Both the position numbers and the translations under genes were made by a program. A stretch of DNA of 49,352 bases from Candidatus Poribacteria bacterium (GTDB taxonomy: Bacteria > Poribacteria > WGA-4E > WGA-3G). Below are positions 1-46,593 of this stretch, piece by piece (the stretch's first letter is position 1; the number at the start of each line of letters is the position of its first letter). The notes beneath the pieces are model-generated. The model was given only the letters and a program-made list of their open reading frames with translations, made no database searches and was not told the DNA's origin. The DNA lies in NCBI GenBank assembly GCA_026702755.1, contig JAPPBX010000098.1, positions 1 through 49,352 on the forward strand, in the 5' to 3' direction.

Positions 1-663
1 TATGAGTAAAGGTATAAAGAGTTTCATTTTTAAATCTCCTTGTCGTTTTTAGAATGGAATTAGTGTTTTGGTGTGTCATGCGACACGAAAAATAGCCCGC
101 GACGAGACGCTCCGTGTGAGACGGAGGCGGCGCGGGCGCGAAGCATCGCGAACAACGATAACTGCTGATACCGTATTCTGAAGAATAATACTTTATATTT
201 GTAAAGTGGGGGGGGGGGGGCAGCCTAACTGCTTGTTAGTAGTCTCTACAGATGACGCGACGGGGCAACACGCACCTCTGTCTTGGGAGGGACTTGCTCC
301 AGCCGAGGCGGAAATCGCTTTGTCGATGTTTGCCTTGATGTGTCCGTTTGGTATGATCGTCATCTTTGTGAAATTTTGCGTGGCCCGTTGTGTCAGAAGT
401 TTGATACTTTCACATTTGTTAATGTATATGGTATCGCAAATTTCGGTATTAATCAAATTAAAAGTGCGATAAAGTCAATTATTATAAGGATTTATTCGAG
501 TGTTGTATTAGGTCATATTTTTTGAAATAAATAACAAAATAATAATGACTTTATCTAACACTTTGCGATGGACGCGACTTTTCCCAAGACATCTCGAATA
601 CATATTTCATAGCAACTCCGAATGTGTGTTGCTTTATTGAATTGTGGCGGAACTCCGATTCAC
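1..663. other. Gene-poor leader region
   Basis: No convincing coding region. The open frames here lack ribosome binding sites, overlap each other on both strands and resemble no family I know. The stretch holds a GC-rich hairpin (96-136: CCCGCG pairs with CGCGGG around an inner stem CTCCGT/ACGGAG), which looks like a REP-type intergenic palindrome, and a run of 13 G at 208-220. From about 450 to 660 the sequence is AT-rich and unstructured. Confidence 0.5.
96..136. repeat. GC-rich palindrome, REP-like
   Basis: The outer stem CCCGCG (96-101) pairs with CGCGGG (131-136). Between them TCCGT pairs with ACGGA around a short GTGAG loop. It stands alone in an intergenic region, so it is probably one of the interspersed palindromes of this genome rather than the terminator of a gene seen here. 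Confidence 0.4.
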
Positions 664-692
664 TTGCCAATTTCCCATATTCGTGCTATCCT
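664..692 (+). promoter_or_regulatory. Putative sigma-70 promoter of the Gfo/Idh-selenoprotein operon
   Basis: TTGCCA (664-669) and TATCCT (687-692) are separated by 17 nt. The expected start near 699 lies about 26 nt before the first gene, whose ribosome binding site AAGGAG follows. Confidence 0.45.
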
Positions 693-724
693 CTTAGGCA
701 ACCCTCAAAAAAGGAGCAATTCCA

Positions 725-1750
725 ATGTATCGTGTCGGTATCATCGGGTTAGGCAGTATCGCCTCCCGCTATTCAACACCAGATGACGCTGCCCCCTATT
801 GTCACACGGGCGGCATCCGTTTTTGTGAAACGACTGAATTGGTGGCAGTTGCGGACATGTCTACTGAACGCCAAGAAGAATTCCAGCAAATTTGGGGACC
901 CGCTTTTCCAGATAACTCCATAAACTATTACGAAACAGATACACAGATGCTTGAAAGCGAGGATTTAGACATCGTCGCTGTCTGTGTGCGCGGACCGCAT
1001 CATTTCACGGTGATGCAGAACGTTTTAAAGGCGGACATCAAAGCCATCTTCCTTGAAAAACCGGCAGGATGTTCCCTTGAAGAAGTTGACACCATGACAG
1101 CGGGTGCTGACGCGAAAGGCATCCCTATCGTTGTCGACTACACACGGCATTGGGGACCACACCTCATCCGCCTCCAATCGCTCATCAAAGACGGACTCAT
1201 CGGTGAGGTGCAAACCGTCATCGGCTACTGCGGCGGCGGTGTGCTCTCTTTCGCTATCCACACAACGGACATGATCTGTCAGTTCGCTGGCTATGATCCG
1301 GTTGCGGTGACTGGATTCGTTTCTGGCGGTGGGGATGTCCCAGAGCCTTACGAACCTGAACCCGCGATTGTCGGTTCAACGATTCAATTTGAAAGCGGTG
1401 CTATCGGTTTTCACGTTGGAAATCATGGTACGCGAGGTGGATTTTCCGTTGATGTTCTCGGCAGCGAAGGAAGCGTTCAGACAGGATTTTACAGTGGAGC
1501 GACTGTGCATAAAGGCGGTGAATTGATTGATAATGCGACCCTTGATCTCCCCGAAAATGCCAGTCCGTTCAAAGTCGCGTATAAACAGATTACGGACTAC
1601 CTCGATGGTGGCCCCTTCCCTGATTGTGCACGGGACGAGTATACGGCTGTCAACGAAATTGGATTTGCTACGATCGAGAGCAGCTTAACTGGACAAACAA
1701 TACAACTCCCGTGTCAGAACAGGAAACGACTCATCTTCGCGAACGGTTAA
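725..1750 (+). CDS. Gfo/Idh/MocA family oxidoreductase
   Basis: NAD(P)-dependent oxidoreductase of the Gfo/Idh/MocA family, expected to act in the cytoplasm on a sugar, inositol or related polyol; the substrate cannot be read from sequence. The N-terminal Rossmann fold has the dinucleotide motif GIIGLGSIA at residues 5-13, and the family signature E-K-P lies at residues 111-113 (Lys112 is the usual catalytic or substrate-contacting lysine). A C-terminal beta-sheet domain follows. At 341 residues it has normal family length. The ATG follows AAGGAG at good spacing and a promoter at 664-692. It is the first gene of an apparent operon, 12 nt before the UGA-containing selenoprotein B-like gene, with a second family member as third gene. 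Family assignment is secure; the reaction is not. Confidence 0.92.
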   Translation: MYRVGIIGLGSIASRYSTPDDAAPYCHTGGIRFCETTELVAVADMSTERQEEFQQIWGPAFPDNSINYYETDTQMLESEDLDIVAVCVRGPHHFTVMQNVLKADIKAIFLEKPAGCSLEEVDTMTAGADAKGIPIVVDYTRHWGPHLIRLQSLIKDGLIGEVQTVIGYCGGGVLSFAIHTTDMICQFAGYDPVAVTGFVSGGGDVPEPYEPEPAIVGSTIQFESGAIGFHVGNHGTRGGFSVDVLGSEGSVQTGFYSGATVHKGGELIDNATLDLPENASPFKVAYKQITDYLDGGPFPDCARDEYTAVNEIGFATIESSLTGQTIQLPCQNRKRLIFANG

Positions 1751-1762
1751 TACGGAGTGTGC

Positions 1763-2485
1763 ATGGCATCTGTATGGAAACTTGATCGTCTCTCTCGATT
1801 CTTTATGAAGTTTTACGGTGGTCGGCGGTATCAAACATCTCCTAACACACCGCTGCGCTTACCGTTGAATGAATGCAGCGTCGCTCTCATTACAACTGCT
1901 GGTTTTTTTCTTGATGGACAGAATCCTTTTGAGAAGGGAGATTGTTCGTATCGTGAGATTCCAAATTCCATTCCGACCCAAGCACTCATAAATGGACATA
2001 AAAGTGCGGCTTACGATGAACGCGGCATCGAAATTGATCCGAACCTTGCATTTCCACTTGATAGATTCAGAGAGTTGGAGACCGAAGGTCAAATCGGATC
2101 ACTCAACGATAGACACTTCAGTTTTATGGGATCAATTACAAAACCGCAACGCCTCATTACGCAAACCGCCCCTGAAGTTGCACAGATGCTTAAAGCGGAT
2201 GGTGTTAACGTTGCTTTCTTAACCCCTGTGTGACCGATGTGCAATCAGTCTGTAGGATTGATACAACGTGCTGTTGAAGAGGCGGGAATTTCCACAGTTT
2301 CGATTACGCTTGCTGAAGGTATGACTCAGAAGATAAAACCGCCGCGTGCGTTAGCCGTGCCATATCCATTTGGACATCCGCTCGGTGAACCGAACAACCC
2401 AGAGTTGCAACATGCGATTATCGCTGAAGCACTTGCGCTCTTAGCGGATGAGACACCACCCCCTATCCTTAAAAATAAAAAGTAG
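1763..2485 (+). CDS. GrdB/PrdB-family selenoprotein B-like protein (UGA = Sec157)
   Basis: Resembles the selenoprotein B family of glycine/sarcosine/betaine and D-proline reductases. The frame runs unbroken through a TGA at 2231-2233, giving 240 residues if the TGA is read as selenocysteine, close to PrdB length. The TGA is followed by P-M-C and then NQSVGLIQRAVEEAGI, so it lies in a U-x-x-C redox motif where this family has Sec or Cys, and a hairpin fitting a bacterial SECIS follows (2244-2262). The start is ATG 1763, 5 nt after GGAG; a GTG at 1757 would lack that site. Neighbours are two Gfo/Idh/MocA dehydrogenases in the same operon, and no PrdA or GrdA/C partner is present, so it is unlikely to be a classical Stickland reductase. 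Gene callers would split it at 2233. The alternative is a nonsense mutation, which would not explain the motif and hairpin. Confidence 0.8.
2231..2233 (+). other. In-frame UGA read as selenocysteine
   Basis: The codon sits between V156 and P158 of the selenoprotein B-like gene, in the order V-U-P-M-C-N-Q. Reading frame and family similarity continue on both sides. Other genes in the window end at TGA (for example 4425-4427 and 5567-5569), so UGA is not generally reassigned. Confidence 0.72.
2244..2262 (+). promoter_or_regulatory. Putative bacterial SECIS element
   Basis: A 7-bp stem pairs 2244-2250 (AUCAGUC) with 2256-2262 (GAUUGAU), including one G-U pair, and closes the loop UGUAG. Seventeen nucleotides separate the UGA from the loop, and a G is the second loop base. 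Both fit the known loose rules for bacterial SECIS elements, which lie inside the coding region and bind SelB. Confidence 0.6.
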
Positions 2486-2530
2486 CAGGCACACGTCATG
2501 TATTGTAACCAATCTTTAAGGAGAAAATAG

Positions 2531-3592
2531 ATGGATAAATTTAAAGTCGGTATTATCGGATGTGGTGGCATATTTCGTAGCCTCCACGCGCCATATTACC
2601 AAGAACCGACGCGCCGTGCGGACATCGTCGCCATCGCTGACATCAACGAAACATCTGCAAACGAACAAGCAGATCAATTCGGCGCAGATGTCTATACAGA
2701 CTACCGTGCACTCCTCGATAGACAGGATATAGATGCAGTCGATGTCTGTGTCCATCCGCGCCCGCATCTCGAAATCACGCGTGCTGCCGCCGCTGCAGGC
2801 AAACACATCTTGATGGAGAAACCGATGTGTTGTAGCGTCGCAGAAGGCGAGGAAATGATTGCTGCCGCTGAAGAGGCGGGGGTCCTCCTGATGGTTGCTT
2901 ACATGATGCGGTTCAGTCCGGGACATAAGAAGCTAAAATCGCTATTAGATGATGGCACGCTCGGCACACTACAGATGGCGTATTCCAATCAGGTCGGTTG
3001 GTTCTCACCGGAGCGGCATCCATGGCTCTTTGTGAAGGCAGAATCTGGCGGTATGTTGGTGGAGCAAGCGATTCACGAACTCGATATCTGGTTGTGGTTA
3101 TACGGTCCTGCCTCTACTGTCTACGGGTTCACAAGCCATGTTCCGCTCGGCGGTACATATCCACCTGCCGAGGACGCTGTGGAGAACAATGCCGTGCTGA
3201 CCGTGCATTTCAAGAGTGGCGGTGTCGGTATGATGATTAAGAGTTGGGCATCTGAGATTCGGAACAGCGGTAACGGTCTGGTCACCAGCAAAGGTTCCGC
3301 GACGTTGATTCACAATGGACTCCGTTGGAAAACCCACGATATGGCATCTGAGGAGGAATTCACTGCTCCTGTGCCAGATGATGGTACCTATCGCAATATG
3401 CCAGAAGAGCGGCGTGAACAGCGGTATTGGGGTGTCGCGGCGAAAGGGGCAAGTATCGACCATTGGCTGCAATGCATCGCTGGTGAAGCGGAGCCAACAA
3501 CCCACGGATGCATCGGGAGAGACGGTATAGAGCTGGCAGAGGCGACGTATCGTTCCTCGCAGATCGGCGCACCGATTTCGTTGCCACTGTAG
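2531..3592 (+). CDS. Gfo/Idh/MocA family oxidoreductase
   Basis: Second Gfo/Idh/MocA-type NAD(P)-dependent dehydrogenase of the operon, 353 residues. The Rossmann motif VGIIGCGGIF is at residues 6-15 and the signature E-K-P-M is near residues 97-100. The C-terminal half has the usual substrate domain (HELDIWLWLYG region). The ATG follows AAGGAG with 7-nt spacing and lies 45 nt after the selenoprotein stop, so co-transcription is likely. The two dehydrogenases of this operon are clearly different in sequence and are not a recent duplication. Cytoplasmic polyol or sugar oxidation is likely; the substrate is unknown. Confidence 0.92.
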   Translation: MDKFKVGIIGCGGIFRSLHAPYYQEPTRRADIVAIADINETSANEQADQFGADVYTDYRALLDRQDIDAVDVCVHPRPHLEITRAAAAAGKHILMEKPMCCSVAEGEEMIAAAEEAGVLLMVAYMMRFSPGHKKLKSLLDDGTLGTLQMAYSNQVGWFSPERHPWLFVKAESGGMLVEQAIHELDIWLWLYGPASTVYGFTSHVPLGGTYPPAEDAVENNAVLTVHFKSGGVGMMIKSWASEIRNSGNGLVTSKGSATLIHNGLRWKTHDMASEEEFTAPVPDDGTYRNMPEERREQRYWGVAAKGASIDHWLQCIAGEAEPTTHGCIGRDGIELAEATYRSSQIGAPISLPL

Positions 3593-3604
3593 GAATGAAA
3601 AATT

Positions 3605-3632
3605 TTGACTTTTTTCCAGAAATTAGTATAAT
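3605..3632 (+). promoter_or_regulatory. Sigma-70 promoter, near consensus
   Basis: TTGACT (3605-3610), a 16-nt spacer and a perfect TATAAT (3627-3632). It lies just after the first operon and about 120 nt before the gene starting at 3756, so it should drive the two-gene unit 3756-5569. Confidence 0.65.
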
Positions 3633-3755
3633 TTATTCAACTCGTATCCTGAATGTCCGTAGAGGCATTTTTCCTATGGATTTCGCCAGGAAGCAACTGA
3701 ACGCCTTGTGAATTGTCCTAAGTAAACAAACCCTTAAAATTACTCTTGAAGGGAT

Positions 3756-4427
3756 GTGGTTAAGGTTACAAGAGGAGAATTTTTAAAATACTACGATTCA
3801 GCAGTTTATTCGGCCAAGCTACGGGTTCCCAGATCGGGTCCCAACTTAGCTGTGATAAATACTGCGCGCATTAATGACGCTGTTTCTTATGGGCGGAACG
3901 TTTATGCTATTGCCCTGGATCTTTTAGTTGATAGGCGTGCCGCTAATATGGTGCAACATGAGGTGTTCTGTCGCACTATAGAGCAGACTTACAATTTTTC
4001 TGTCGCCGATGTGTGGCGTGGTAACTCGCGCTGGGAAGGTCTTCAAAACCTCACTATAGCTGCCGCAGTTGATATTCTGTGTTTACCTGAAGAAAATAAC
4101 CCACTCTCGCGCCCATTGATTGGCGGTGCACAATTACTGGGTGAGGTGAACAGTAAATGGTGGGGGATGTTGGCACTGACCTTCCGACTCAGAGGTTTGC
4201 TCGAATTTCAGGTAGGGTGCCTCACTGTTTTAAAAAAGCCTCTCCAAGAGATAGCGGAATGCCTTTCTAAGCCAGAGACTGAAATTCAATTGCTGTATCG
4301 AACAACCATCACGGAAATAAAGAACGCTATTGACCAGTGGGCGCAAACCGAGATTTCAGCAGCAAACGAACGTTTCACTGAAGTCGAGGAAATCAAAAGA
4401 CACTACGATTACGGGAGGACATTATGA
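3756..4427 (+). CDS. Conserved-context protein of unknown function
   Basis: A 223-residue protein I do not recognise. It has no signal peptide and no clear membrane segment. The C-terminal third (about residues 160-195, around LKKPLQEIAECLSKPETEIQ) looks helical and could form a helix-turn-helix, but this is only an impression. The start is the weakest part of the call: GTG 3756 has GAAGG only 3 nt upstream, and no better in-frame start is visible. The stop overlaps the next gene's ATG by 4 nt (ATGA), which indicates translational coupling with the Gfo/Idh-like protein and a shared role. Confidence 0.62.
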   Translation: MVKVTRGEFLKYYDSAVYSAKLRVPRSGPNLAVINTARINDAVSYGRNVYAIALDLLVDRRAANMVQHEVFCRTIEQTYNFSVADVWRGNSRWEGLQNLTIAAAVDILCLPEENNPLSRPLIGGAQLLGEVNSKWWGMLALTFRLRGLLEFQVGCLTVLKKPLQEIAECLSKPETEIQLLYRTTITEIKNAIDQWAQTEISAANERFTEVEEIKRHYDYGRTL

Positions 4428-41157: not shown

Positions 41158-42696
41158 ATGCTCGCAACGGTACTAAGCAGTGCGATGTTGGGAATTGATG
41201 CCTATATAGTGAAAGTCGAGGTAGATGTCGCCGGTGGAATGCCGTACTTCAGCACAGTTGGCTTGCCGGACAGTGCTATCAAAGAGAGTCGGGACCGGGT
41301 TACTGCAGCCATTAAAAACTCCGGTTTCTACTTCCCTCCAACCCGAATCACAGCGAACTTAGCACCTGCTGACATCCGAAAAGCGGGCTCAGCGTTTGAT
41401 CTTCCCATCGCAATCGGCGTTATGGCGGCTACAAATCAAGTAAGCCTGGAAAGTCTTGAGAATACCATGATTCTGGGCGAACTCGCACTCGACGGAAGCA
41501 TCCGCGGTATACCGGGTGGACTCCCTATAGCCATCACTGCAAAAGAGAACAACATTCAAAATCTCATTTTACCTGCTGAAAACGCGAGAGAGGCGGCGAT
41601 TGTTGAAGATGTGAACATCTATCCGGTTGCGAGTTTGTCAGAGGCTGCAGCGTTCCTCAATTCGGAGAAGGAAATAGTACCAGAACCACACACGCTCAAT
41701 ACTGACGAGGACACCGAAGCCTCAGAACCGCTCCTTGATCTACTCGATGTGAAAGGGCAAGAACACGTTAAGCGCGCGATTGAAGTTGCCGCTGCAGGTG
41801 GGCATAATCTTATCATGATCGGACCACCCGGTTCGGGAAAGACCATGATTGCGAAGCGGATCCCATCAATTCTACCGAGACTGTCTATAGACGAATCCTT
41901 AGAAACGACGAAAATCCAAAGCACCATCGGCATTCTCCCAAGTGACACTCCTTTGGTTGTAACGCGTCCATATCGCTCACCACATCATACAATCTCAGAC
42001 GCAGGCTTAATCGGTGGTGGAAAGATGCCGCGCCCCGGTGAGGTGAGTCTTGCACACAATGGCGTGCTCTTTTTAGACGAACTCCCCGAATTCCGACGAA
42101 ACGTTCTTGAAGTCATGCGACAACCGCTTGAGGACCGGCAAGTAACCATCTCCCGGGCATCAGCATCGCTTACTTACCCTGCAAACTTTATGCTCGTTGC
42201 TGCCATGAATCCTTGCCCTTGCGGATTTTTCAGTGACCCAAGTCGGGACTGTAAGTGCTCACCCAACCAGATTCAGAACTATGTTTCCCGTATCTCTGGT
42301 CCACTATTGGACAGAATCGACATCCAGGTGGAAGTCCCAGCGGTGAAACATGCGGAACTCGCCGCCGAGACAACCGGTGAAACCTCGGCACACGTCCAAG
42401 AACGCGTTGAAGCAGCACGTCAAGTCCAACACCAACGCTTCGCTGGAACAACAATACACGCCAATGCAAACATGGAATCGAAGCAGATACGAGAATACTG
42501 CAAAGTTGACGACCAAGCGCAAGATCTGCTTCGGGTTGCGATTAATCAATTAGGGCTGAGCGCGCGTGCCTACGACCGGATTTTGAAGGTGGCGCGCACC
42601 ATTGCAGACTTGGATCGAAACCCGAATATAGAGGCGATGCATGTCTCTGAAGCCATACAATACCGGAGTTTAGATCGCAGTTTCTGGAAAGAGTAA
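41158..42696 (+). CDS. ComM/YifB family AAA+ ATPase (Mg chelatase-like)
   Basis: A 512-residue cytoplasmic ATPase. The N-terminal ChlI-type domain (about 20-140, [36 protein letters not shown]) is followed by the AAA+ module with Walker A GPPGSGKT (about 222-229) and Walker B FLDELPEF (about 308-315), then the C-terminal Mg_chelatase_C region ([19 protein letters not shown]). ComM acts as a branch-migration helicase during natural transformation. The start is ATG 41158 after GGAAGGAAA. In the pre-insertion sequence it would have been followed after 54 nt by the sulfatase gene, now separated from it by the transposon. Confidence 0.93.
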
Positions 42697-42719: not shown

Positions 42720-42727
42720 AAGAACAT
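42720..42727. repeat. Target-site duplication, left copy
   Basis: AAGAACAT directly abuts the left terminal inverted repeat; the same 8 bp abut the right one at 46563-46570. Eight base pairs is the duplication size expected of IS1595-family transposition. Confidence 0.85.
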
Positions 42728-42750
42728 CGCAATAAGTCGTTTTGGGATTG
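42728..42750 (+). repeat. Left terminal inverted repeat
   Basis: 23 bp, perfect inverted match to 46540-46562. A second, imperfect copy of its core (ATTAGTCGTTTTGGACTTG) lies at 42776-42794, which may be an extra transposase binding site at this end only. Confidence 0.85.
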
Positions 42751-42831
42751 GTTAAATCTGGTATAACTTAACGGAATTAGTCGTTTTGGACTTGCAGAAA
42801 GTTCTAAATAGTTTACACGATACTTTTGGAT

Positions 42832-42860
42832 TTGACAAGACAAAAATTATCTGATACAAT
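42832..42860 (+). promoter_or_regulatory. Sigma-70 promoter of the first passenger gene
   Basis: TTGACA (42832-42837), 17 nt and TACAAT (42855-42860), close to ideal. It lies 90 bp before the ATG at 42950. Confidence 0.65.
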
Positions 42861-42949
42861 GTTAACTAAATCAAATCCACTAAAAACGAATTAGTTGTCT
42901 TAACTTGAAATTCAAAATTGAATTCCCATATTAGCAAAGGAGTATAAAA

Positions 42950-43117
42950 ATGCAAGATAGTCCGATCATAGCAGCAGAGAAAGCAAGGATTAAAAGGGAA
43001 GTAGAAAAAGAGATGGTACAAGAGCAGATATTGGTGGTTTTAACTACTATATCTGAACAGTTAGCAGAAATTTTAGAACACTTAAAATCTTCCGAATCAA
43101 CTTCTAATACGAAGTGA
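42950..43117 (+). CDS. Small coiled-coil-like protein, passenger gene
   Basis: A 55-residue protein starting MQDSPIIAAEKARIK and ending SSESTSNTK. It is charged and helical, with Leu/Ile spacing (VVLTTISEQLAEILEHLK) suggestive of a short coiled coil. I know no family. It is preceded by AAAGGAG at good spacing and a strong promoter, so it is probably real despite its size. It is the first gene inside the left end of the transposon. Confidence 0.65.
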   Translation: MQDSPIIAAEKARIKREVEKEMVQEQILVVLTTISEQLAEILEHLKSSESTSNTK

Positions 43118-43148
43118 TACTCTAACACCTCTTTATGCTCTATTATTA

Positions 43149-43183
43149 AGAAAAAACGGCAACACCTGTTCCGGTATTGCCGT
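43149..43183 (-). terminator. Rho-independent terminator of the lipoprotein/barrel pair
   Basis: On the minus strand the stem ACGGCAA/TTGCCGT (43177-43183 with 43156-43162), extended by ACC/GGT, is followed by a T-run (complement of the A-tract 43148-43156). It lies 20 bp after the stop of the minus-strand lipoprotein gene. Confidence 0.75.
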
Positions 43184-43203
43184 CTGATTTATGGTCTGTC
43201 GGG

Positions 43204-43578
43204 TCAAATTTCCTCTGCCCATATTATCCATCCGTCTACATCAAATTCTATATCTTCAATATACAATGTGAAGGTATAGGTTCGTCCTGAACGATACCGA
43301 TTTAGGCTTTTGGGGCTTTCGTAGTCTGTGATAAAGAAAGTTACGTCCCAATAGCCTGTTTCAAGTGAAATACCGCCTCCGTAATCTAAATCAGCACGAT
43401 CAAATAGAACAGTTGCTTTAATTCTAATCTTCTCATTTTCATAGAGGTCTCCACCATTTATCGCGTCATTCACAACTTCTGACATACTGACTTCTTCTAT
43501 AGGCGAGAATGGGTTATCTGCACCACACCCAACCAAGAGTATGATGCATAAAGTCAGATAAAACTGAAAGTATTTCAT
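43204..43578 (-). CDS. Small lipoprotein, passenger gene
   Basis: A 124-residue predicted lipoprotein with lipobox LVGC (Cys at about residue 18) and a beta-rich remainder (KIRIKATVLFDRADLDYGGGISLETGYWDVTFFIT, TYTFTLYIEDIEF) that could be an OB-like barrel. There is no family I can name. It begins 9 nt after the beta-barrel gene on the same strand and ends at a terminator, so the two form an operon in the transposon. AAAGAGGAA lies before the ATG. Confidence 0.75.
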   Translation of the reverse strand: MKYFQFYLTLCIILLVGCGADNPFSPIEEVSMSEVVNDAINGGDLYENEKIRIKATVLFDRADLDYGGGISLETGYWDVTFFITDYESPKSLNRYRSGRTYTFTLYIEDIEFDVDGWIIWAEEI

Positions 43579-43587
43579 AATTCCTCT

Positions 43588-44112
43588 TTACTGGTAAGAT
43601 TTTAGCGAGCCAAATCCAAATGAGACACCAAATTGTGCAGATATTGAGTCTCTCGACGGGAAATAGTCGGTTTGAGCAAAGAAAGCAAGTGCGTAATCCG
43701 CATGATAAGCATAACCTATATGTGTTATCGCAGATATACCTGTTCCAAAACCACCAGAGTATGCCGGACCAATTCCCCATTGGAGAAGTGCCTCTTTTGA
43801 AAGATAATATCCTGAAGTGATAAAACCTGATAATGCTATATCTTCGGATTTGAAATCATAATTTAGTGTGCCAAGTATGCCAAGACTATTAAAGTGTGCC
43901 AATCGCCCACCACTACGACTGTGTTCTAAATATGTGTGATAGAAGCCGTTAATACCAACGAATAATCTATCTGTGCTGTCGTCTATATCATAAATCCCAC
44001 CATGGAAACCAACAAAATCAAATTCATTCCATAAATGTGATACACCTTCATTTGCATGTGTATCACTAACCACCTGATATGTTAAGTATAGAACTAATAA
44101 AATCTTTCGCAT
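43588..44112 (-). CDS. Predicted outer-membrane beta-barrel protein, passenger gene
   Basis: A 174-residue protein with a signal peptide (MRKILLVLYLTYQVVSDTHA) and alternating amphipathic strands rich in Gly/Tyr/Phe (FVGFHGGIYDI, LFVGINGFYHTYL, SLGILGTLNYDF, ISAQFGVSFGFGSL), consistent with a small eight-stranded barrel. No family recognised. The ATG follows GGAGAGAGG. It is first in a two-gene operon with the lipoprotein. Envelope proteins are unusual cargo for this type of element; they could alter surface properties or phage sensitivity. Confidence 0.75.
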   Translation of the reverse strand: MRKILLVLYLTYQVVSDTHANEGVSHLWNEFDFVGFHGGIYDIDDSTDRLFVGINGFYHTYLEHSRSGGRLAHFNSLGILGTLNYDFKSEDIALSGFITSGYYLSKEALLQWGIGPAYSGGFGTGISAITHIGYAYHADYALAFFAQTDYFPSRDSISAQFGVSFGFGSLKSYQ

Positions 44113-44169
44113 TATCCTCTCTCCTCTGGTAATCCTTAATTAAGTCAAATATGCTACACCACTAAACCC

Positions 44170-44279
44170 GGATACCCGATTCTTAAAAAGAGAGAGGGTA
44201 TCCCCGGCGACCAAACCGCAATATCCAATTTACATTAGATATGGGATACCCATAGTCCTATAGATATTGCAGTTTGGTC
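44170..44279. repeat. Nested inverted repeats upstream of the barrel gene
   Basis: GACCAAACCGCAATATC (44209-44225) pairs with GATATTGCAGTTTGGTC (44263-44279) with one mismatch. Nearby GGATACCC (44170-44177) pairs with GGGTATCC (44196-44203). They lie in the divergent region between the barrel gene and the 44561 gene, so they may be regulatory or a remnant of a smaller element. Confidence 0.5.
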
Positions 44280-44408
44280 ATGAGACAGATTTTACAGGAA
44301 GATTAGAAAAAAGGAAAGAAAAAACTTGACAATGCGATTCTGCTATTCTGATTAATTCCAAACAAAAATATTTTTAACTTGAAAAAAAGAGAAATATTAA
44401 ACCCTTCT

Positions 44409-44472
44409 TTATATTTTACGTCCAAATTGTATAAGATACAGATTTGTTACACAATTTGGACGTAAAATATAA
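44409..44472. repeat. Perfect 22-bp inverted repeat
   Basis: TTATATTTTACGTCCAAATT... (44409-44430) is the exact reverse complement of 44451-44472, spaced by 20 bp. It ends 2 bp before the -35 box of the promoter at 44475. This could be an operator, a terminator-like barrier, or the paired ends of a small element. Confidence 0.7.
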
Positions 44473-44474
44473 AA

Positions 44475-44503
44475 TTGACAAAAAAATACATTTTTGGTAT
44501 CGT
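44475..44503 (+). promoter_or_regulatory. Sigma-70 promoter next to the 22-bp palindrome
   Basis: Consensus TTGACA (44475-44480), 17 nt and TATCGT (44498-44503). It drives the gene at 44561. Confidence 0.55.
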
Positions 44504-44560
44504 TTGGTACAGTGAGCGTTTAAACGTTCCATTTTGAATAATAGAAAGGAGTGTTAAATC

Positions 44561-44848
44561 GTGAATGAAAATTTGGATTTCTCCGAAAAGCAGAAGGAAT
44601 TTTTAAGAGGTTTGCTCACAGAAACTTTTTCACCTCTTGAAAGGAGTGTGAATACAGCACTCTATCGTTATGAACTTGTATCCGAGCATGTATTAAATCT
44701 TGAGCGTGTTATCAATGAGGCAATTAAAAGTATTGAGGATAACCTTCCAGCAACAAAGGAGGGCAAGAAACAGAAGTTGGTTTCAAATAAGACTCGTGCA
44801 GTAGCACGAGAGAGTCGTGAGAGATTACAGATTTCTGTTCAAGCATAG
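44561..44848 (+). CDS. Helical protein of unknown function, passenger gene
   Basis: A 95-residue protein, mostly helical and charged (LDFSEKQKEFLRGLLTETFSPLERSVNTALYRYELVSEHVLNLERVINEAIKSIEDNLPATKEGKKQKL). No family recognised. It has a GTG start 7 nt after AAAGGAG, its own promoter with a 22-bp palindrome upstream, and a strong terminator after it (44867-44907). Such isolated, self-contained layout suggests a regulated protein, possibly one that acts on the palindrome, but that is a guess. Confidence 0.68.
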   Translation: MNENLDFSEKQKEFLRGLLTETFSPLERSVNTALYRYELVSEHVLNLERVINEAIKSIEDNLPATKEGKKQKLVSNKTRAVARESRERLQISVQA

Positions 44849-44866
44849 GTGCTTTATTGATCTAAT

Positions 44867-44910
44867 GAAAGCCATTGACTGTTTCAGTCAGTGGCTTTCG
44901 TCTTTTTTAG
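44867..44910 (+). terminator. Rho-independent terminator after the 44561 gene
   Basis: GAAAGCCATTGACT (44867-44880) pairs with AGTCAGTGGCTTTC (44886-44899), with one mismatch, and is followed by the T-run in GTCTTTTTTAG (44900-44910). The run overlaps the 3' end of the minus-strand transposase gene. Confidence 0.8.
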
Positions 44911-45806
44911 ACTTTCATACTTCCATTGACAAACTTCGTCCAAATACAATCAAGGTTTCGGGAGTTATAGACATAACAACGTTCAGCGACATAAAGTGGG
45001 GTATACTCAACACTGTACCAATGGTGAGATCCATGATACGCCTTTTTCAGTAAATTCCAAAATCCCTCTATTGTATTCGTATGCTTATCACCATCAACGT
45101 ATTGCTCTTGGTGATTTATGATATGGTGCTTAAGTTGGCTGCCAAGTGTTTTATAGCCACGGTATTCGTCTGTCATAAGTTCCGATTCCTTGACGTTCAC
45201 AACTCTGCGTATGAATTCAAGGATAGCACGTCCTGTTAATCCTTTCGCAACTTCAGCAACGACTTGACCGCCTCGCTCTACCGCACCAATCACAGCGGTT
45301 TTATCCGTTCCACGCCCCCGCTTGGCTGGCACTCTATCCTCTGTCTTGTTCTCTTTGCGAGGTTTACCACCTATGTAGGTTTCGTCTGCTTCTATGATAC
45401 CTTGTAGCAGTATAGAACTGGTCTTATTCGCCATTTCTGCTCGTATGCGTGTCTGAAGATACCACGAAGCCTTCTGCTTCAGGTCTAAATCACGTGAGAG
45501 TTGATAACTGGACAGGCTTTTCTTCGCATTGACGATAAGCGATATGGCAAGAAACCACTTCTGAAGCGGTATCTTTGTGCCGTGAAATACTGTGCCACAG
45601 GTTACTTTGAATGAAGCACTACAATCATGGCAATTCCAGCGTCCTACACGCCCTTCACCTTCTTCTTTCTTACGAACCACGTCTTTACTCTCACAATGGG
45701 GACAAACAGCCGTTCCACGCCAACGTATCCGTTCCAAATGCTCTATGCACGCCTCTTGGTCAGGGAAGCGTGCCATGACTTCTATGAGATTCATAAAAAA
45801 AGACAC
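44907..45806 (-). CDS. IS1595-family (ISXO2-like) transposase
   Basis: A 299-residue DDE transposase. The N-terminal zinc ribbon has C35, C38, C59 and C62. The catalytic domain has D141 (EADETYIGGK), D213 (MTDEYRGY) and E247 (HTNTIEGFW). It would cut and join the 23-bp ends at 42728 and 46562, making the 8-bp duplication seen there. The start is uncertain: GTG 45806, next to GGAGAG, or ATG 45794 (MNLIEVMARF, the usual family start). It has its own promoter 130 bp upstream with a hairpin in the leader. The frame is complete, so the element may be active. Confidence 0.92.
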   Translation of the reverse strand: MSFFMNLIEVMARFPDQEACIEHLERIRWRGTAVCPHCESKDVVRKKEEGEGRVGRWNCHDCSASFKVTCGTVFHGTKIPLQKWFLAISLIVNAKKSLSSYQLSRDLDLKQKASWYLQTRIRAEMANKTSSILLQGIIEADETYIGGKPRKENKTEDRVPAKRGRGTDKTAVIGAVERGGQVVAEVAKGLTGRAILEFIRRVVNVKESELMTDEYRGYKTLGSQLKHHIINHQEQYVDGDKHTNTIEGFWNLLKKAYHGSHHWYSVEYTPLYVAERCYVYNSRNLDCIWTKFVNGSMKV

Positions 45807-45900
45807 CTCTCCATAAAAAAGAGTTGCCTTCTTCTTATATCTTTTGATATAATATAGTTAACACTACTACAGAAAAAAGCAACTCATTTTTCTGTGTGAT

Positions 45901-45924
45901 ATAGGGAGGTTGCACCCTCCCTAT
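45901..45924. promoter_or_regulatory. Leader hairpin of the transposase transcript
   Basis: ATAGGGAGG (45901-45909) pairs with CCTCCCTAT (45916-45924). It lies immediately after the minus-strand promoter, about 100 nt before the transposase start, where it could hold back transcription or protect the leader. Confidence 0.5.
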
Positions 45925-45936
45925 TAACTTACCTAT

Positions 45937-45966
45937 ATTATACCATTTTTTAGTCAATTAAGTCAA
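45937..45966 (-). promoter_or_regulatory. Transposase promoter
   Basis: On the minus strand TTGACT (45966-45961), 18 nt and a perfect TATAAT (45942-45937). It reads into the leader hairpin and the transposase gene. Confidence 0.6.
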
Positions 45967-46055
45967 GCAAAAAAGTGCAAAAAACATAGTAAATACAAGG
46001 GGTTATGGCACTTTTTTGGAAATAAATATCAAGATAGATAAGGGGTGATAAAGCA

Positions 46056-46442
46056 ATGGAAAAACCACGAAAAATAAAAGAACTGGGTATAAATACTAAG
46101 GATTTGGAATCTATCAAAATCAGTTCGGAAACAAAGAAGTTATGGAAAAACACACAAGAAGCGGGAATCCGTTTTGAAATAGAAGATAGAAATAGTATGC
46201 ACCTCAAAACAGATTTTGATAATATGCACATTTCTAACACAACATACGCTGAAGTCCAAAAAACAAAAATCTACTTTGAATCTTGTATAAAAAAGTCTAA
46301 AAATGAGTTGATTAAACTTGTCCTTTTCCGAACACGGCTTGAAGAACTACTGCATATTTTAGAATCGTCTGAAATTGACGAAACTAATTCTGACCTTATT
46401 GACCAATGTATAAAAACTATCTCAGAAAAATATCAAGATTAA
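46056..46442 (+). CDS. Protein of unknown function, passenger gene
   Basis: A 128-residue hydrophilic, helical protein (KELGINTKDLESIKISSETKKLWKNT, NELIKLVLFRTRLEELLHILESS). No family, no signal peptide and no membrane segment. The ATG follows AAGGGGTGA with moderate spacing. It is the last gene before the right end of the transposon, 98 nt from the terminal repeat. Base composition is AT-rich like the rest of the element. Confidence 0.66.
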   Translation: MEKPRKIKELGINTKDLESIKISSETKKLWKNTQEAGIRFEIEDRNSMHLKTDFDNMHISNTTYAEVQKTKIYFESCIKKSKNELIKLVLFRTRLEELLHILESSEIDETNSDLIDQCIKTISEKYQD

Positions 46443-46539
46443 ATTAACAACCCCAAAAATAAACCAATTTTCAACATTCTAAAACAAGAAAAACCCCACT
46501 GAATACATGGGTTTAAAGCGGATTTCCAAAATTATTTTT

Positions 46540-46562
46540 CAATCCCAAAACGACTTATTGCG
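46540..46562 (-). repeat. Right terminal inverted repeat
   Basis: Exact inverted copy of 42728-42750. It is followed directly by the right target copy AAGAACAT (46563-46570). A gene caller extending the sulfatase frame upstream would translate across it, so the first 29 residues of that longer frame are not real. Confidence 0.85.
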
Positions 46563-46570
46563 AAGAACAT
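46563..46570. repeat. Target-site duplication, right copy
   Basis: AAGAACAT, identical to 42720-42727. Confidence 0.85.
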
Positions 46571-46593
46571 TATACAACGAAAAAAGCGGAAAA

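Follow-up and report, generated by a model that had tools for sequence, protein, structure and literature searches.

Transposable elements of the IS1595 family that carry passenger genes form a known class, the transporter IS (tIS), which includes ISNha5, tISCpe8 and MTnSag1. Their passengers comprise a regulator in ISNha5 and lincomycin resistance in tISCpe8, which is mobilizable and related to MTnSag1 (Siguier 2009, as cited in PMC11891212 and PMC3129680; PMC5704250). A different arrangement has been described for Tn7560, a pseudo-compound transposon of ISApl4 in which two full IS copies accompany resistance genes (PMC12561309).

Here, we analysed an element of 3,835 bp (positions 42728-46562) in a 49,352-nt stretch of DNA from a Candidatus Poribacteria bacterium, referred to as the window. 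The element shares an IS1595-type transposase, inverted ends and passengers dispensable for transposition with ISNha5, tISCpe8 and MTnSag1, but differs from them in carrying genes for a barrel, a lipoprotein and helical proteins, in the placement of cargo to either side of the transposase and in a duplicated leader. As in Tn7560, an IS1595-family IS mobilises neighbouring genes; however, instead of two full IS copies, the window contains one transposase and the ends of a unit transposon. The simple IS1595 elements of Poribacteria (L045, L076, L096 and L097; 1.14-1.22 kb) resemble the element in transposase family, ends, 8-bp duplications and leader, but lack cargo. Methyltransferase-bearing IS1595 elements from Chloroflexi, Alphaproteobacteria, Acidobacteriota, Dadabacteria, Latescibacterota and Arenicellales (L128-L150) have the same transposase family, end pattern, 8-bp duplication and placement of cargo beside the transposase, while their cargo is a single methyltransferase gene.

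Boundaries of the element and its insertion site

The features of the element are listed in Table 1. The terminal inverted repeats are complementary at 23 of 23 positions, and a 24th pair (T/A) in the computed arm is a chance match stemming from the duplication. By our own estimate, a perfect 23-bp inverted pair bordered by an 8-bp duplication lies far beyond random expectation. The duplication has the length typical of the IS1595 family, as found in the window and in 21 further exact cases among related Poribacterial elements. Furthermore, the GC content drops sharply inside the element, to 31-40% in the cargo, with 45-48% in the transposase gene, compared with 44-53% outside. A preliminary description, made from the letters of the window, had proposed a complete 3.8-kb IS1595-type transposon with perfect 23-bp ends, an 8-bp direct repeat, an intact DDE transposase and AT-rich cargo, and had noted that this family makes 8-bp duplications and may carry passengers; all of these points were borne out.

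Table 1. Coordinates of the element and its parts in the window
Feature	Position	Strand	Evidence or remark
Left copy of 8-bp target duplication, AAGAACAT	42720..42727	.	single copy at G001 empty site
Left terminal inverted repeat, CGCAATAAGTCGTTTTGGGATTG	42728..42750	+	end type shared by many related elements
Second, internal left-type end, CGGAATTAGTCGTTTTGGACTTG	42772..42794	+	83% match; L096 has the identical 23-mer as its left end
Possible passenger gene, 55 aa, helical	42950..43117	+	ORF, ribosome-binding site, promoter match
Passenger lipoprotein, 124 aa, lipobox LVGC	43204..43578	-	homologue in G036 element
Passenger 174-aa predicted outer-membrane beta-barrel, 8 strands	43588..44112	-	AlphaFold2 pLDDT 74
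27-bp palindrome, 12-bp spacer	44408..44473	.	upstream of 95-aa gene
Passenger 95-aa helical protein	44561..44848	+	broken/truncated homologues beside IS1595 ends in G020, G023
IS1595-family DDE transposase, 299 aa, zinc ribbon, open frame	44907..45806	-	Pfam and NCBIfam
Transposase leader, inner copy (hairpin, promoter), without terminal repeat	45814..46020	-	tail HMM 113.8 bits, element position 3087-3293
Passenger 128-aa helical protein	46056..46442	+	homologues in IS1595 elements of G007, G036
Second, partial copy of the distal part of the leader, joined to right end	46463..46539	.	29.1 bits
Right terminal inverted repeat	46540..46562	-	complement of left end
Right copy of target duplication, AAGAACAT	46563..46570	.

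The element is inserted between a yifB/comM-type gene, which ends at 42696, and a sulfatase gene, which starts at 46591. The preliminary description was right that two neighbours had been separated, but the original distance between them is 51 nt rather than 54 nt. It had also suggested looking for a relative in which comM is directly followed by the sulfatase gene, and the joined flanks were searched against 38 genomes of the host genus. In the closest relative (G001), they align along their full 857 bp with 95% identity around a single target copy, AAGGACAT, and the same two genes are adjacent, while most of the other relatives searched retain both genes as neighbours. This empty site shows that the element was inserted in the past. 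Since G001 has the empty site and no match at all to the window transposase, the insertion is recent on the scale of these species.

Chance is excluded by the perfect 23-bp ends and the 8-bp duplication, together with the finding that the joined flanks reproduce the intact locus of a relative. We put the probability that this is a transporter IS of the IS1595 family, inserted by transposition, at about 0.9. The element is best explained as a unit transposon whose own DDE transposase moves it by recognising the two 23-bp ends. In line with the tIS class, four supported non-transposase genes without a transposition domain lie between the ends, and one transposase with simple ends is present where a composite transposon would have two IS copies around the cargo. 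A search of the cargo for Pfam and NCBIfam domains revealed no relaxase or mobilisation domain; a mobilisation gene or an origin of transfer would characterise an integrative mobilizable element of the MTnSag1/tISCpe8 type. No RNA families were found inside the element.

The second left-type end at 42772 indicates that more than one IS1595 end was involved. It matches the ends of another IS1595 subfamily (a 1.14-kb IS), tandem left ends also occur in L068 and L092, and a search within the element for a repeat of its flanking 8 bp found none. One could imagine that two unrelated insertions left their ends around an older genomic island instead of forming one transposon, but the two outer ends have the same sequence, the duplicated 8 bp match exactly and precisely this segment was added to the empty site, which refutes this highly improbable reading.

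A single copy of the element is present in its own genome, that of a sponge-symbiont bacterium. The further copies that the preliminary description had proposed to look for were not found at full length; the remaining DNA matches come from fragments of degenerate IS1595 relatives on contigs C73 and C18, and matches to the end pattern elsewhere in the genome were no commoner than those to a reversed-pattern control. As a side observation, the right end of the element provides an in-frame ATG that would extend the N-terminus of the sulfatase by 28 residues (46507-46590), and transcripts of the 128-aa gene that read through the end could include the sulfatase gene as well.

The transposase

The transposase exceeds the curated cut-offs of the IS1595 models, with E=5.5e-36 for the Pfam domain DDE_Tnp_IS1595 (124 bits against a cut-off of 27) and 1.7e-54 for the NCBIfam IS1595 model (185 against 75). 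Its N-terminus contains Zn_ribbon_IS1595 (PF12760; E=8.9e-10, 38.8 bits against 25.4), a zinc ribbon that is typical of all IS1595 groups except IS1016 (PMC8101967). Candidate catalytic D and E residues, assigned by motif, lie in ADETY at 140, TDEYRGYK at 212 and NTIEGFW at 244. Close relatives in named records belong to Candidatus Poribacteria, and a sequence search for solved structures gave no significant match. Uneven DNA similarity had hinted at a mosaic transposase between the window and G007; this was rejected, as the whole subfamily is equally low in C-terminal identity.

Passenger genes

Of the five passenger genes originally proposed, four are supported by homologues. The 55-aa ORF has no homologue among the loci compared and is a possible gene, the evidence being a ribosome-binding site and a promoter that matches well (11/12 at 42832-42860). 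The lipoprotein and barrel pair of the preliminary description was borne out.

The lipoprotein has one close homologue, which is 82% identical and located in the G036 element (dN/dS about 0.19), and a C-terminal fragment of it was found in G003. Its distant relatives are tandem two-domain chromosomal lipoproteins in most genomes of the host genus, suggesting that the cargo lipoprotein may descend from a host gene. One such two-domain gene lies at L177:2437-3246(-) (G000:C90). The AlphaFold2 model of the lipoprotein was unusable (pLDDT 37), and sequence searches with this protein and the 128-aa protein found no significant solved structures.

The folds nearest to the barrel model are OmpA, OmpX, Ail and NspA, with modest TM-scores of 0.4-0.5 that compare folds only. 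Among 85 genomes from the phylum, 4 have the barrel, and each time it belongs to an IS1595 element or adjoins one: besides the window, it lies within elements bounded by target duplications in G036 and G003, and in G020 it lies next to IS1595 sequence. None was found in plasmids or viral contigs. In G036 and G003, it adjoins a lipoprotein of 318-329 aa with an HEFxH motif; the gene for this metallopeptidase-like protein is absent from the window, and no remnant of it was detected there. A role as a PagL-like enzyme was considered for the barrel and is unsupported, as the His-x-Ser motif carried by PagL is missing from the conserved columns.

Both arms of the palindrome upstream of the 95-aa gene are changed in sequence in the G020 remnant and remain complementary to each other, suggesting that it may serve as a functional operator or hairpin. 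The 95-aa gene is followed by a terminator hairpin (44865-44901). In G023, a homologue of this gene (L100:5306-5585) adjoins a right-type end with zero mismatches to the consensus in a locus where no transposase was found, which is either a remnant or a transposase-less cassette. The homologues of the 128-aa protein are 73% (G007) and 64% (G036) identical, with dN/dS of 0.2-0.26. Where the context could be judged, homologues of the 128-aa and 95-aa proteins occur solely next to IS1595 sequence; one further match, in G035, covers 31 residues.

As judged by sequence comparison, the cargo is transposon-associated, since close homologues of the barrel, the lipoprotein and the 128-aa protein were confined to the IS1595 elements of relatives or their immediate surroundings. 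The preliminary description had named a relative with the same genes and no matching ends as the case that would speak against a transposon; the barrel and the 128-aa gene were found in or beside IS1595 elements instead. Its statement that such cargo is not described holds for these particular genes, which have no Pfam, NCBIfam or PADLOC matches, but not for passenger-bearing IS1595 elements in general, which are a known class. To our knowledge, this type of cargo, a duplicated leader and exchange across subfamilies have not been described, and we found no earlier account of conserved IS1595 cargo that comprises outer-membrane and lipoprotein genes.

Related elements

Transposases of this family were found in 68 of the 194 genomes surveyed, including most of the host genus. 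When the surroundings of long copies were searched for ends with at least 14/20 complementarity and an exact 8-bp duplication, 22 Poribacterial loci of 1.1-6.5 kb qualified, including the window; a control with reversed right flanks gave 2 hits over 43 loci, compared with 25 real ones. Simple IS of 1,139-1,218 bp account for four of the 22, and the other 18 carry cargo (1.7-6.5 kb). Among the products of this cargo are DNA methyltransferases, HicA, endonuclease VII and a fused type I-like enzyme, along with sulfatase-modifying-enzyme-like, trypsin-like, beta-propeller and laminin-G-like proteins. The distribution of methyltransferase cargo on the Poribacterial tree needs at least five changes. 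In other phyla, nine loci of 2.4-2.9 kb (L128, L133, L135, L136, L138, L143, L145, L149 and L150) have one methyltransferase gene beside the transposase. Two of these were inspected for added domains, revealing an Mrr-like domain in L149 and an HNH nuclease in L143; these elements are possibly mobile single-gene restriction-modification units.

The company of such sister elements raises the question of whether the cargo of the window is likewise a stability or competition device, toxin-antitoxin-like or acting in phage exclusion. The sister elements bear methyltransferases with nuclease genes, the fused type I-like enzyme and HicA, and the small cargo genes of the window are arranged in short units. 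However, PADLOC, Pfam and NCBIfam have zero matches to the window cargo, and export of the barrel and lipoprotein sets them apart from typical toxin-antitoxin pairs. We consider such a device improbable, at around one chance in four.

Selection on the cargo and exchange between elements

The cargo genes have dN/dS values of 0.19-0.50, and the transposase has a value of 0.10; judged by these ratios, the cargo genes are under purifying selection. This bears on the view that the cargo consists of passive hitchhikers, that is, chromosomal genes that were trapped accidentally between two IS ends, moved a few times and now drift, benefiting neither element nor host. In its favour, cargo is often broken in relatives, as in the lipoprotein fragment of G003, the broken 95-aa gene of G020 and the split methyltransferase of L078, and the lipoprotein has its distant chromosomal relatives. 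Against this, the low dN/dS of the cargo was obtained over dS of 0.4-1.0, the gene order is conserved, the genes have their own terminators and their association with elements is repeated. Passive carriage seems rather unlikely to us.

Our best guess is that the cargo has an envelope function. The exported barrel and lipoprotein might alter the surface of the carrier cell, for example by blocking or protecting the target of a phage or competitor, and so give the element a selective advantage, a proposal in which we place low confidence.

Between the window and the G036 element, dS amounts to about 0.4-0.5 for the barrel and the lipoprotein, rises to 0.8 for the 128-aa gene and reaches 1.2 for the transposase, and this unequal synonymous divergence implies that parts of the element have different histories. 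The 128-aa gene is found in two transposase subfamilies, and placement of its carriers in one clade was rejected (p=3e-6), whereas monophyly of the barrel carriers was not formally rejected (p=0.069); both p-values are optimistic, because the groups were named with knowledge of the data. Judging from these comparisons, cargo genes are shared between elements in ways that the transposase tree does not follow.

Duplicated leader and proposed capture of cargo

The leader that precedes the transposase continues straight into the right end in simple IS. In the window, by contrast, an inner leader without an end lies next to the transposase, and beyond it come the 128-aa gene, a partial leader copy and the right end. 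The outer copy scored 29.1 bits even with the terminal 30 bp removed, compared with 3.9 bits for the best of 2,600 shuffles, and a second copy is also present in the G007 element (40.7 bits) and the G020 remnant (32.2 bits). Other elements with cargo on the right have the inner copy without an end, and the outer copy is weak or absent in several of them. The position of the 128-aa gene between two leader copies, of which only the outer one bears an end, suggests that it was captured by recruitment of a second IS end.

Such a capture would start from a simple IS of about 1.1-1.2 kb, whose transposase would skip the IS's own end and use another IS1595-type end past a neighbouring gene. The skipped inner end would later decay or be lost, leaving the duplicated leader, which could then offer a stretch of homology through which elements exchange cargo. 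A possible intermediate is L098 (G045; element positions 1-3838), in which a single outer duplication encloses an entire IS, cargo of the beta-propeller type and a fragment of 237 bp that has ends. The second left-type end at 42772 may have been left by a comparable step on the opposite side of the window element.

Significance

How simple IS turn into passenger-bearing transposons is a long-standing question. Within one clade, a natural series now extends from simple IS of 1.1 kb to elements of 6.5 kb that are flanked by exact target duplications, and it includes an empty site, leader duplications resembling capture scars and cargo moving between transposase subfamilies. It also shows that conserved IS1595 cargo can consist of outer-membrane and lipoprotein genes. 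Tentatively, and with somewhat less than even confidence, we propose that the IS1595 elements of Poribacteria constitute a modular cargo system, in which the IS ends and leader would act as exchangeable borders and exported proteins, restriction enzymes, toxin genes and others would be swapped across subfamilies, with cargo-carrying relatives in several other phyla.
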